DNA from: Geovibrio ferrireducens
GTDB lineage: Bacteria > Chrysiogenota > Deferribacteres > Deferribacterales > Geovibrionaceae
Direction: 5' to 3'
Assembly (NCBI RefSeq): GCF_026226615.1
Contig: NZ_JAJAPB010000002.1
Span: 248,001 to 312,000 of the forward strand
Length of the DNA stretch: 64,000 bases
Part shown: one piece after another, positions 192 to 52,592 of the stretch
Numbering within the stretch: the first letter of the stretch is position 1
Layout of the letters: each line of letters starts with the position of its first letter
Position numbers and translations under genes: made by a program
Notes under the pieces: model-generated
The model's database searches: none
Told to the model about the DNA's origin: nothing
What the model saw: only the letters and a program-made list of their open reading frames with translations

Positions 192-264
192 AGATGTTTC
201 TCAGTTCTTCAATAACACAATGACTGCTTGGTTTTATAGAGTTTAATGTTGATGCTGCTGTGGC

Positions 265-334
265 AGCCCCAATGACGGGGCTACGCCGTGCACAGCGAAG
301 CCGAACTGTGTTCGGCGCGAGCGTGTACATCAAA
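265..334 (-). repeat. Modular hairpin element, copy A
   Basis: Read on the minus strand this carries ACACGCTCGC, a hairpin with 7-bp arms GCCGAAC/GTTCGGC (300-306 with 310-316), the spacer TTCGCTGTGCACGGCG, and a hairpin AGCCCC/GGGGCT (265-270 with 77-82 of the same hundred, i.e. 277-282). The first module seen in other copies is reduced to its right arm (AAGTTTGATGT). Related copies lie at 19335-19430, 30495-30585 and 52441-52538 with different but still complementary arms. The 192-524 interval holds only this element and the next one; I see no gene in it. Confidence 0.75.
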
Positions 335-356: not shown

Positions 357-437
357 TGTCACTGCGAGGAGCGAAGCGATGAAGCAGTCTCAAAATATAC
401 ATAGAGATTGCTTCACCCTTTCAGGGTTCGCAATGAC
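357..437. repeat. 81-bp imperfect long hairpin repeat (second family)
   Basis: The two ends are inverted: GTCACTGCGA (357-366) pairs with TCGCAATGAC (428-437) at 9 of 10 positions, and GAAGCAGTCTC pairs with GAGATTGCTTC around an AT-rich centre. The same element occurs inverted at 19437-19517 and as a half copy at 19582-19617, each time next to the modular hairpin element. It resembles the non-coding MITE/REP-like hairpin repeats found between genes in many bacteria. No transposase gene is present nearby. Confidence 0.75.
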
Positions 438-18956: not shown

Positions 18957-19304
18957 ATGTTTGTGTTTAACTTCAAGGAATTTGAATGCCCGTTCAACTG
19001 CTTTGCCGAAATCATAAAAGGCAAGTGGAGGACAGGTATAATTCTCAGTCTCAGCGGCAGCCCTAAAAGGTTTTCAGAGCTAAAGAAAGAGCTTGCCGGA
19101 GTAAGCTCGAAGGTTCTGGCGGATAATCTCAGGGCGTTGGAGAGCGGCGGGCTGCTCAGCCGTACGGTTTTCCCAACCGTTCCGCCCGCGGTGGAATATT
19201 CACTCACGGAGCAGGGACAGGAACTTTCAGGAATCATGGACAGCATAAACAACTGGGCGGGTATTTTTCTGAATAAAGGAGAAGCCGTTACTTATACGGA
19301 ATAA
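18957..19304 (+). CDS. HxlR-family transcriptional regulator
   Basis: 115 residues, a single winged-helix domain of the MarR-related HxlR type. Marks are CPFNCFAEIIKGKWRTGIILSL (helix 1, with the conserved cysteine often used as a redox sensor, and the K-W pair), RFSELKKELAGVSSKVLADNLRALESGGLLSRTVFPTVPPAVEYSLTEQG. AGAGGT lies 7 bases before the ATG. It is divergent from the NAD(P)H-binding oxidoreductase, its likely target. Confidence 0.93.
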   Translation: MFVFNFKEFECPFNCFAEIIKGKWRTGIILSLSGSPKRFSELKKELAGVSSKVLADNLRALESGGLLSRTVFPTVPPAVEYSLTEQGQELSGIMDSINNWAGIFLNKGEAVTYTE

Positions 19305-19334
19305 TCGGAGGCTAAGCCATCCTCTCATTTAATA

Positions 19335-19430
19335 ACATCAAACTGCACGTCCTGTCAGTTTGATGTACACGCTCGCGGCGGGGTGAACCCGCCTTCGCTT
19401 CGCACGGCGCAGTCCCTGTCCTTGGGACTG
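19335..19430 (+). repeat. Modular hairpin element, copy B (complete)
   Basis: Module 1 is an 11-bp perfect stem (19335-19345 with 19356-19366) with loop CACGTCCTGT. Then comes the linker ACACGCTCGC. Module 2 is GGCGGG/CCCGCC (19377-19382 with 19388-19393) with loop GTGAA, then TTCGCTTCGCACGGCG. Module 3 is CAGTCCC/GGGACTG (19410-19416 with 19424-19430). The 19305-19672 interval contains no gene: two frames crossing it are made only of repeat sequence. Confidence 0.85.
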
Positions 19431-19436
19431 TTTTGC

Positions 19437-19517
19437 GTCATTGCGAACCCTGAAAGGATGAAGCAATCTCTCTGTATATTTTAGAGACTGCCACGTTGCT
19501 GCGCTCCTCGCAGTGAC
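19437..19517. repeat. 81-bp long hairpin repeat, second copy
   Basis: This is the inverted counterpart of 357-437: GTCATTGCGA at one end and TCGCAGTGAC at the other, with GAAGCAATCTC and GAGACTGC flanking an AT-rich centre. It abuts module 3 of copy B, the same neighbour relation as in the first cluster. Confidence 0.75.
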
Positions 19518-19545: not shown

Positions 19546-19617
19546 CCTGTCAGTTTGATGTACACGCTCGCGACTGTTTTGCGTCATTGCGAACCCTGAA
19601 AGGGTGAAGCAATCTCA
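19546..19617 (+). repeat. Internally deleted tandem copy of the composite element
   Basis: Bases 19546-19572 repeat 19351-19377 exactly (27 bases). They jump straight to the module 3 right end and the following hairpin repeat (GACTG, then the CATTGCGAACCCTGAAAGG region), which repeats 19426-19470 with one change. So this is copy B with modules 2 and 3 deleted and only half of the 81-bp repeat. Confidence 0.75.
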
Positions 19618-28788: not shown

Positions 28789-30428
<1,640 letters not shown>

Positions 30429-30483
30429 CTGTACCTTGTTAGCCGTTGAGAGCCTCAGCACCGTTTAGGATGTCAAGAATCTC
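30429..30483 (-). pseudogene. Duplicated 3' end of atpG
   Basis: 55 bases match 30579-30633 at 54 positions (G at 30468 against C at 30618). The block includes the last 15 or so codons of atpG with its TAA stop and 10 bases beyond. It lies downstream of the intact gene, separated by modular element copy C. It has no start of its own and is a non-functional fragment. Confidence 0.9.
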
Positions 30484-30494
30484 CTGTTTTGCCG

Positions 30495-30585
30495 GCACAA
30501 AAACAACGTCCTGTGTTTTTGTGCTACACGCTCGCGCCGTGGTAAACACGGCTTCGCTGCGCACGGCGAAGGTACATCCTGTACC
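30495..30585 (+). repeat. Modular hairpin element, copy C, inside the atp operon
   Basis: Module 1 is GCACAAAAAC/GTTTTTGTGC (30495-30504 with 30515-30524) with loop AACGTCCTGT. Linker TACACGCTCGC follows. Module 2 is GCCGTG/CACGGC (30536-30541 with 30547-30552), loop GTAAA, then TTCGCTGCGCACGGCG. Module 3 is GGTACA/TGTACC (30571-30576 with 30580-30585) with loop TCC; its right arm is part of the atpG-derived duplicate. It is antisense to the operon, but the hairpins fold in either strand. Confidence 0.85.
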
Positions 30586-30588
30586 TTG

Positions 30589-31446
30589 TTAGCCGTTGAG
30601 AGCCTCAGCACCGTTTACGATGTCAAGAATCTCATTGGTGATTGAAGCCTGACGCACTTTATTGTAAGTGAGCGTCAGTTTGCCGATCATGTCGGATGCG
30701 TTTCTGGATGCGTTGTCCATAGCCATCATCCTTGCACCGTGCTCACCCGCTGTGGATTCAAGCAGAGCCTGAAAAATCTTGTAGCGGATGTATCTGGGCA
30801 TAAGTTCGTTCAGAAGCATTTCGGGTTTAGGCTCGTAGATATATTCCACAAGCTGCTCGCCTGTCTCCTCAACTTTCAGCGGAAGAAGTTTTTCCGTAAC
30901 CGGTGTCTGCGATGCTGTTGATCTGAACTCGTTATAGAGTACGTAAACATCGCTTATACCGTTATTAAGGAACTGCTCCACAACAACATCGGCTATGCCG
31001 ACAGCGTCACTGAAAAGAACCTTGCCTGCGAAATCGGCATATTTCTCAATTATTTCAAAGTCTCTCTTTCTGAAAAACTCGTAAGCTTTCTTGCCTATGC
31101 AGACAAGCTTAACCTTTTTACCGGGGTGCTCGGAAGCAAACCGGGAAACGGCTTTCAGAATGTTGTTGTTGAAAGCGCCGCAAAGCCCTCTGTCGCTGGT
31201 TACGACTATAAGGCCTATGGTATCCGTGTTTTCATTACCTGCGAGAAACGGGTGAAGCTCAGGATTGGCTCTCTGAGCCACATCGTGAACCATCTCCGTA
31301 ATCTTGCGGGCAAAGGGTCTGGCGGCTGCCATAGCGTCCTGCGCGCGGCGCATCTTCGCAGCGGAAACCATTTTCATGGCTTTCGTAATTTTCTGCGTGT
31401 TCTTTACAGATGCAATTTTGCGTTTTATATCACTGGTTCCGGCCAT
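30589..31446 (-). CDS. atpG: F1 ATP synthase gamma subunit
   Basis: 285 residues. The N-terminal helix is typical (DIKRKIASVKNTQKITKAMKMVSAAKMRRAQ), as is VTSDRGLCGAFNNNI and the C-terminal helix with ASRNASDMIGKLTLTYNKVRQASITNEILDIVNGAEAL. It is the central rotor shaft. AAGGAG lies 7 bases before the ATG; it starts 11 bases after atpA. Its last 44 coding bases and stop are copied again downstream at 30429-30483. Confidence 0.97.
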   Translation of the reverse strand: MAGTSDIKRKIASVKNTQKITKAMKMVSAAKMRRAQDAMAAARPFARKITEMVHDVAQRANPELHPFLAGNENTDTIGLIVVTSDRGLCGAFNNNILKAVSRFASEHPGKKVKLVCIGKKAYEFFRKRDFEIIEKYADFAGKVLFSDAVGIADVVVEQFLNNGISDVYVLYNEFRSTASQTPVTEKLLPLKVEETGEQLVEYIYEPKPEMLLNELMPRYIRYKIFQALLESTAGEHGARMMAMDNASRNASDMIGKLTLTYNKVRQASITNEILDIVNGAEALNG

Positions 31447-52440: not shown

Positions 52441-52538
52441 CAGTGCTTCTGCCTGCATCCTGCGGCATAAGCACACACGCTCGCGCCGTGATGAACACGG
52501 CTTCGCTTCGCACGGCGAGGCATACATCCCTGTATGCC
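52441..52538 (+). repeat. Modular hairpin element, copy D
   Basis: Module 1 is GTGCTT/AAGCAC (52443-52448 with 52469-52474) enclosing GCC-T-GCA-TCC-TGC-GGC, a TCC-loop hairpin. Linker ACACACGCTCGC follows. Module 2 is GCCGTG/CACGGC (52485-52490 with 52496-52501), loop ATGAA, then TTCGCTTCGCACGGCG. Module 3 is GGCATACA/TGTATGCC (52519-52526 with 52531-52538), loop TCCC. It lies directly after the small exported gene. Confidence 0.85.
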
Positions 52539-52553
52539 GGGGGAACAACCAGA

Positions 52554-52592
52554 CAGTGCTTCTGTCTGCATCCTGCGGCATAAGTACACACG
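52554..52592 (+). repeat. Direct repeat of module 1 of copy D
   Basis: 39 bases match 52441-52479 at 37 positions (differences at the bases corresponding to 52452 and 52472). The core of copy D is therefore flanked by a direct repeat, just as copy C is flanked by the atpG 3' end duplicates. Confidence 0.75.

Follow-up and report, generated by a model that had tools for sequence, protein, structure and literature searches.

The window, i.e. the 64,000-nucleotide stretch of the Geovibrio ferrireducens genome analysed here, contains four copies of a mostly intergenic element of approximately 90 bases that comprises three hairpins. All four had been named in a first-pass annotation of the letters, and all were found in the window sequence with the arms described there: copy A (264-348), on the minus strand in the orientation of that annotation, and copies B (19335-19430), C (30495-30587), and D (52443-52539), on the plus strand. 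The annotation gave the order as hairpin 1, hairpin 2, hairpin 3 and pointed to a recurrent TCC apex. The apex is indeed a key feature, but the strand has to be reversed, as TCC reads GGA on the opposite strand and there lies within loops of the CsrA type, hairpins 1 and 3 ending in CAGGA(U/C/A)G or CANGGANG loops. On this strand, in the following termed the sense strand (plus for copy A, minus for copies B, C, and D), the order is hairpin 3, CGCCGUGCGNAGCGAA, hairpin 2, GCGAGCGUGU, hairpin 1, and a tail UAUNAA.

Copy B starts on the minus strand with hairpin 3 (19410-19430; CAGUCCC-AAGGACA-GGGACUG, with a GGA loop), followed by the conserved core CGCCGUGCGAAGCGAA with its GCGNAGC mini-hairpin (19394-19409), hairpin 2 with the arms GGCGGG/CCCGCC (19377-19393), the conserved GCGAGCGUGU (19367-19376), which in the RNAalifold structure pairs with CGCCGU of the core and closes the junction, and hairpin 1 (19335-19366), an 11-bp stem with a CAGGACG loop of the CsrB-repeat type. 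Copy C, on the same strand, consists of hairpin 3 AAGGUACAGGAUGUACCUU (30569-30587) immediately 3' of the atpG stop codon, the core CGCCGUGCGCAGCGAA (30553-30568), hairpin 2 with GCCGUG/CACGGC (30536-30552), GCGAGCGUGU (30526-30535), and hairpin 1 with GCACAAAAAC/GUUUUUGUGC arms and the apex ACAGGACGU (30495-30524). The hairpin 1 stem given by the annotation for this copy, GCACAAAAAC/GTTTTTGTGC, and the CGTCCTGT loop common to it and the 11-bp stem of copy B are both present. A direct repeat of 55 bp, 54 of them identical, flanks copy C on the minus strand: the upstream repeat is the 3' end of atpG, starting with GAGATTC (30579-30633), and the downstream repeat lies at 30429-30483. A solitary CAGGAUG hairpin without the element core (30228-30254, minus strand) lies a short distance before the start of atpD, the next gene, and may be a related site of its own; isolated GGA hairpins may be frequent in the genome.

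Copy D, again on the minus strand, encompasses hairpin 3 CGGCAUACAGGGAUGUAUGCC with an AGGGAU loop (52519-52539), the core CGCCGUGCGAAGCGAA (52502-52517), hairpin 2 (52485-52501), GCGAGCGUGU (52475-52484), and hairpin 1 with the apex GCAGGAUGC (52443-52474). Its hairpin 2 arms are GCCGUG/CACGGC as in copy C, the hairpin 2 arms of the four copies otherwise differing wholly, as the annotation had noted. Copy A is present, but not in the intact form implied there. Its hairpin 3 (264-283, plus strand) has a loop decayed to AAUGAC, lacking GGA, and its hairpin 1 (327-348; ACATCAAACTTACAGGGTGACG) is broken; the segment in between (284-326) holds the core CGCCGTGCACAGCGAA, hairpin 2 (GCCGAAC..GTTCGGC, 300-316), and GCGAGCGTGT. 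In the orthologue of a related species (G002), hairpin 3 is CAGCCCCAAGGATGGGGCTG with the GGA loop kept (AAGGAU), and hairpin 1 is likewise imperfect with GGA retained. Beyond the four named copies, the window also contains truncated ones on the minus strand: GCGAGCGTGT with the 5' half of a hairpin 1 near copy B (19546-19571) and a solitary second hairpin 1, a truncated array copy, near copy D (52556-52587). A separate dispersed repeat, CATTGCGAACCCTGAAAG.. (..GCAATCTC), occurs at 19439-19457 (plus), 19585-19603 (plus), and 417-435 (minus); it belongs to a different family and abuts or interrupts several elements in the window and elsewhere in the genus.

The 16-mer TTCGCTTCGCACGGCG (at most one mismatch) occurs 128 times in the 2.97-Mb genome (46 contigs) to which the window belongs, the reversed control pattern not once, and a chance alignment of four sites is ruled out by copy number and reversed-pattern controls. 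The gapped two-part core ACGCTCGC..TTCGCTNCGCACGGCG was counted 86 times in this genome (G000) and 65 and 230 times in G001 and G002, these three genomes representing the sequenced species of a single genus of the Deferribacterales; 57 other relatives had no occurrence. In a scan of 84,980 species, nearly all occurrences fell in contigs of the MAG 'Deferribacterales bacterium Deferri_01', which correspond to G001. A covariance model built from 73 copies yielded 147 (G000), 130 (G001), and at least 150 (G002) matches, i.e. more than 100 copies in every genome of the genus. Since contigs of the G. ferrireducens assembly often end inside element copies (e.g. C2:114, C4:126, C9:160, C11:90363, and C21:14), the numbers for G000 are probably underestimates. 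Rfam gave no match in the window at gathering scores, which includes CsrB-like RNAs, nor, within 19300-19460, any at E values up to 5; known RNA families, among them the CsrB/RsmZ sRNAs, are thereby rejected for the window. The element is real and lies outside every family tested.

The first-pass annotation held that the fold rather than the arm sequence is kept, and this is strongly supported by RNAalifold, by covariation relative to shuffles, and by a recount on 160 copies. In a covariation alignment of 73 copies, prefiltered for GGA-centred hairpins, 93.2% of 2262 cells pair, compared with 70.3% (s.d. 0.6) in shuffles; the covariation score is 0.584 versus 0.159 (s.d. 0.008), and two-sided compensatory changes are found in 544 cells versus 172, affecting 21 of the 31 pairs. 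Shuffles do not correct for relatedness; sliding the partners by 1-3 columns does, and here pairing drops to 28-53%, a large effect. Covariation is present in all three hairpins and demonstrates conservation of the fold. Folding energies lie 3-4 s.d. below those of shuffles. RNAalifold, unprompted, returned the same three hairpins from the alignment together with a core helix, in which the invariant CGC-CGU is paired with GCG-A-GCG and closes a junction that holds hairpin 2. Inside this junction GCGNAGC, whose N is any of the four bases, can form a two-pair GNA mini-hairpin. Because invariant parts carry no covariation, complementarity is the sole basis for this predicted core structure. On the sense strand the stems contain 59 G.U and 24 A.C appositions, from copies that are not all independent, an excess as expected for RNA. 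A second class of elements (L071, L081, L083, L110, and L118) harbors GAACTAT after hairpin 1, in place of TATNAA.

As the covariation alignment had been filtered on GGA hairpins, a second loop count was made with the core as the only selection criterion, which gave 160 distinct copies. In 147 of these, the apex window of hairpin 3 contains GGA; the figure is 150 for hairpin 1 and 137 for both hairpins together. A perfect hairpin 3 stem of 5 bp or more adjoins the core in 139 copies, and hairpin 2 is fully paired (six pairs) in 136 and has five pairs in 22. The loops are pentaloops of the form AGGAN (CAGGAUG, CAGGACG, CAGGAAG) or hexaloops of the form ANGGAN (CAUGGAUG, CAAGGAUG, CACGGAUG, and similar), closed mostly by C-G, with both N positions of the hexaloop variable. 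Point by point, they match the published motif definitions: CsrB carries approximately 18 CAGGA(U/A/C)G repeats in hairpin loops (PMC7652899), SELEX with CsrA yielded RUACARGGAUGU, in which ACA and GGA do not vary, and the hexaloop recognized by RsmE is ANGGAN with variable N positions (PMC7652899; PMC3791407). The pentaloop of the element is identical to the CsrB repeat and one base shorter than in the SELEX consensus, and the hairpin 1 stems, at 9-13 bp, are longer than those favored in SELEX. In random stretches from genomes with and without csrA, GGA-loop hairpins were enriched only in G002 and G003, with few hairpins elsewhere.

The placement of the element relative to genes is strand-biased. 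In codirectional gene gaps the GGA strand is sense to the preceding gene at 57 of 70 sites and antisense at 13 (p 1e-7), and convergent gaps outnumber divergent ones by 26:8; the gene calls are simple ORF calls, which would blur such a bias and should not create it. At 62 of 133 sites a sense stop codon lies within 60 nt of hairpin 3, mostly within about 12 nt, and at 45 of 133 a sense start codon follows hairpin 1 within 60 nt, many with a Shine-Dalgarno sequence directly after the tail.

The modularity proposed by the annotation is borne out by the genus-wide comparison. Over 120 sites, the hairpin 2 arm, the hairpin 3 arm, the loop class of hairpin 1, and the free N show no association in excess of shuffles, i.e. 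the types assort independently, and of the 26 different hairpin 2 arms 11 are found in more than one species. Elements at orthologous sites share place and orientation; in several pairs (L091/L134, L092/L135, L104/L048, L086/L021, and L083/L058) a completely different hairpin 2 stands between nearly identical hairpins 1 and 3. In L091/L134 and L086/L021, one base pair of hairpin 1 next to the loop has been replaced on both sides of the stem (G-C to A-U and A-U to G-C), with GGA unchanged. Constant loops on changing stems at orthologous sites give hairpins 1 and 3 the appearance of selected RNA. The annotation had left selection of the fold and a copying mechanism side by side; selection at the RNA level is favored for hairpins 1 and 3 because of sense placement, constant loops with changing stems at orthologues, and the wobble bias. 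Hairpin 2 would be an exchangeable cassette, most simply exchanged via recombination between identical cores, and its swaps were probably added in this way.

A single csrA gene is encoded in each genome of the family. In G. ferrireducens it adjoins a fliW-like gene, and its product matches solved CsrA/RsmE chains along the RNA-binding sheet. At locus L216 (1583-2292, minus strand) csrA follows directly after a fliW-like gene and a flagellar gene; with such genes preceding csrA, control by FliW may replace control by sRNAs. Among 51 genomes of the phylum, element matches were obtained in 18 of 42 with csrA and in 0 of 9 without it (Fisher 0.013, uncorrected for relatedness and with some of the nine genomes incomplete), and many csrA genomes lack the element; co-occurrence across the phylum is only suggestive.

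Both outer hairpins thus show CsrA/RsmE-type loops on the preferred sense strand in genomes that also encode csrA. The most probable explanation, to which a probability of about 0.6 is assigned, is a dispersed family of structured RNA elements that present paired CsrA-type sites and are predicted to be transcribed from the strand opposite to the annotated one. Each copy would consist of two GGA hairpins, hairpin 3 and hairpin 1, separated by an invariant junction of CGC/CGU with GCG-A-GCG that encloses the GCGNAGC mini-hairpin and the variable hairpin 2. CsrA, a global RNA-binding regulator, alters translation and stability of the mRNAs it binds. By analogy with this established mode of action, CsrA dimers would bind the two GGA hairpins of a copy and protect or repress the surrounding mRNA. 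Less probably, the copies may jointly titrate CsrA, as a scattered counterpart of CsrB/RsmZ.

The main competing explanation, to which about a one-in-five weight would be due, is mobile DNA, a repeat of the REP/BIME or MITE type, whose hairpins are read as single-stranded DNA by a transposase that also copies the fold, the GGA being coincidental. In its favor are the high copy number, the intergenic location, the arrangement in tandem arrays, and the fact that some orthologous sites lack the element cleanly; GCGNAGC with its free N also resembles the GNA DNA mini-hairpin, which is very stable, and flanking direct repeats are present as well. The history of the element is one of gain, in-place duplication, and decay, as follows from differing arrays, absences, and remnants: many copies stand in tandem, with the element plus a gene end as unit; array size differs at orthologous sites (at two sites, one copy in the window and four in G002, the site of copy D being one with four whole G002 copies); a few sites are occupied in G000 but empty in G001, or the reverse; and decayed remnants are left at other sites in G001 and G002. 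Against a transposase, Y1_Tnp (PF01797) has 0 matches in G000, G001, and G002. A REP palindrome is defined by an unpaired GTAG or CGTC at its foot (PMC3733652), and the hairpin feet in the covariation alignment are ACA/CGCC and GUGUA/UAUNAA, with neither tag; a REP/RAYT system is ruled out by the lack of both gene and tags. Moreover, a DNA-level process does not account for the sense-strand bias or for G.U exceeding A.C, and a transposase would leave free N positions around an invariant A..GGA unexplained.

Hairpins that stabilize or terminate mRNAs independently of CsrA, any stable stem 3' of a stop codon being useful, are an unlikely explanation. The location of many sites just after stop codons and the low folding energies fit this idea, but the tail UAUNAA is followed by gene sequence, not by a U tract, and neither the invariant junction nor the GGA apices would be explained. 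Still less credible is a SINE-like retroelement inserted by target-primed reverse transcription, with flanking duplications of about 20-90 bp and a fixed junction of tail and GA. At 46 of 108 sites a flank-to-flank repeat exceeds the 99th percentile of a mismatched-pair control, and in clear cases the downstream repeat starts near GA, 42-48 nt past the core, and reaches back across the end of the gene upstream; many of these repeats are equally explained as truncated array units, and RVT_1 (PF00078) has no match in G000 or in the closed genome of G002, which harbors the most copies. A group II or other retroelement is rejected, as two of the three genomes lack a reverse transcriptase. The only RVT_1 gene in the genus is L149 of G001 (G001:C3:114810-115451). 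It was also considered that hairpin 3 arms are copied from the flanking gene, since atpG and some other flanks share the 5' arm of hairpin 3, but a truncated array unit as downstream repeat gives an equal pattern. The atpG insertion is shared by G002, and G001 keeps a remnant of it.

For the CsrA-site element preferred here, multiplication would proceed in place, by tandem units of element and flanking gene end, and exchange between identical cores would swap hairpin 2. Comparable elements are found in other genera. The genome G007 from a sister genus has seven matches to the covariance model (best E 8e-13), their core, CGCCGUGCGNAGCGAAG..GCGAGCG, having diverged slightly; several of the elements lie directly before a Shine-Dalgarno sequence. 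In G023, from another family, the model has 25 matches, which belong to repeats whose core, GUCUUUAGUGAGCGAUA..hairpin..AGAGCGUGU, and stems both differ, again with two GGA hairpins, whose loops are AAGGAU, ACGGAU, AUGGAU, AGGGAU, AGGAA, AGGAC, and AGGAU; as the model scores GGA hairpins, matches outside the family are selected for GGA, and their repetition with varied stems is the independent part. G003 carries a third form, its own dispersed repeat with two GGA hairpins. Many of the G023 elements stand in tandem arrays (G023 and G003 loci L161-L198).

Several known systems share individual features with the element. The decoy RNAs CsrB/CsrC and RsmX/Y/Z, by which other bacteria control CsrA, likewise present several GGA-loop hairpins on varying stems, with CAGGA(U/A/C)G as an exact match (PMC7652899), but the element offers two sites per unit, at more than 100 intergenic places in or near mRNAs, with an invariant junction between the sites, and it has neither a single sRNA gene nor an Rfam match. 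REP/BIME/REPIN sequences are also short, modular, arrayed intergenic palindromes of high copy number; unlike these, the element lacks a RAYT/Y1 transposase and the GTAG/CGTC tag, is placed with a strand bias, and has freely covarying arms, the arms of REPs being conserved within a family. BOX elements of Streptococcus pneumoniae are three-module stem-loop repeats between genes as well, with conserved module sequences and a varying number of middle modules, whereas the element has changing stems and constant loops and linkers. CsrA sites in mRNA leaders (glgC, hcnA) and mRNA sponges resemble it in having GGA hairpins near Shine-Dalgarno sequences or within mRNAs, but the glgC/hcnA-type sites are unique to single genes and the element is a repeat family. 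With its putative CsrA binding, the element would combine dispersed repeats with a Csr-type RNA.

The usual interpretation of repeats between bacterial genes is that of mobile DNA or of signals for packaging. The family described here appears to be a dispersed, putatively protein-binding RNA, with the CsrA-type loop kept and the stems free in more than 100 copies per genome, and it would allow a direct test of whether a regulon can be created or titrated by repeats. With its covarying stems and exchanged hairpin modules, it is also an unusual natural data set. A bolder and more tentative proposal, somewhat on the doubtful side, is that the lineage has rewired or buffered CsrA via hundreds of two-site cassettes at transcript ends, with the mRNA pool acting as a sponge, and that cassettes of this architecture, with two GGA hairpins flanking a folded core specific to the lineage, form a general class in Deferribacterales. 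In a phylum in which little regulatory work has been done, the findings point to a structured RNA, so far undescribed, that contains an invariant junction.
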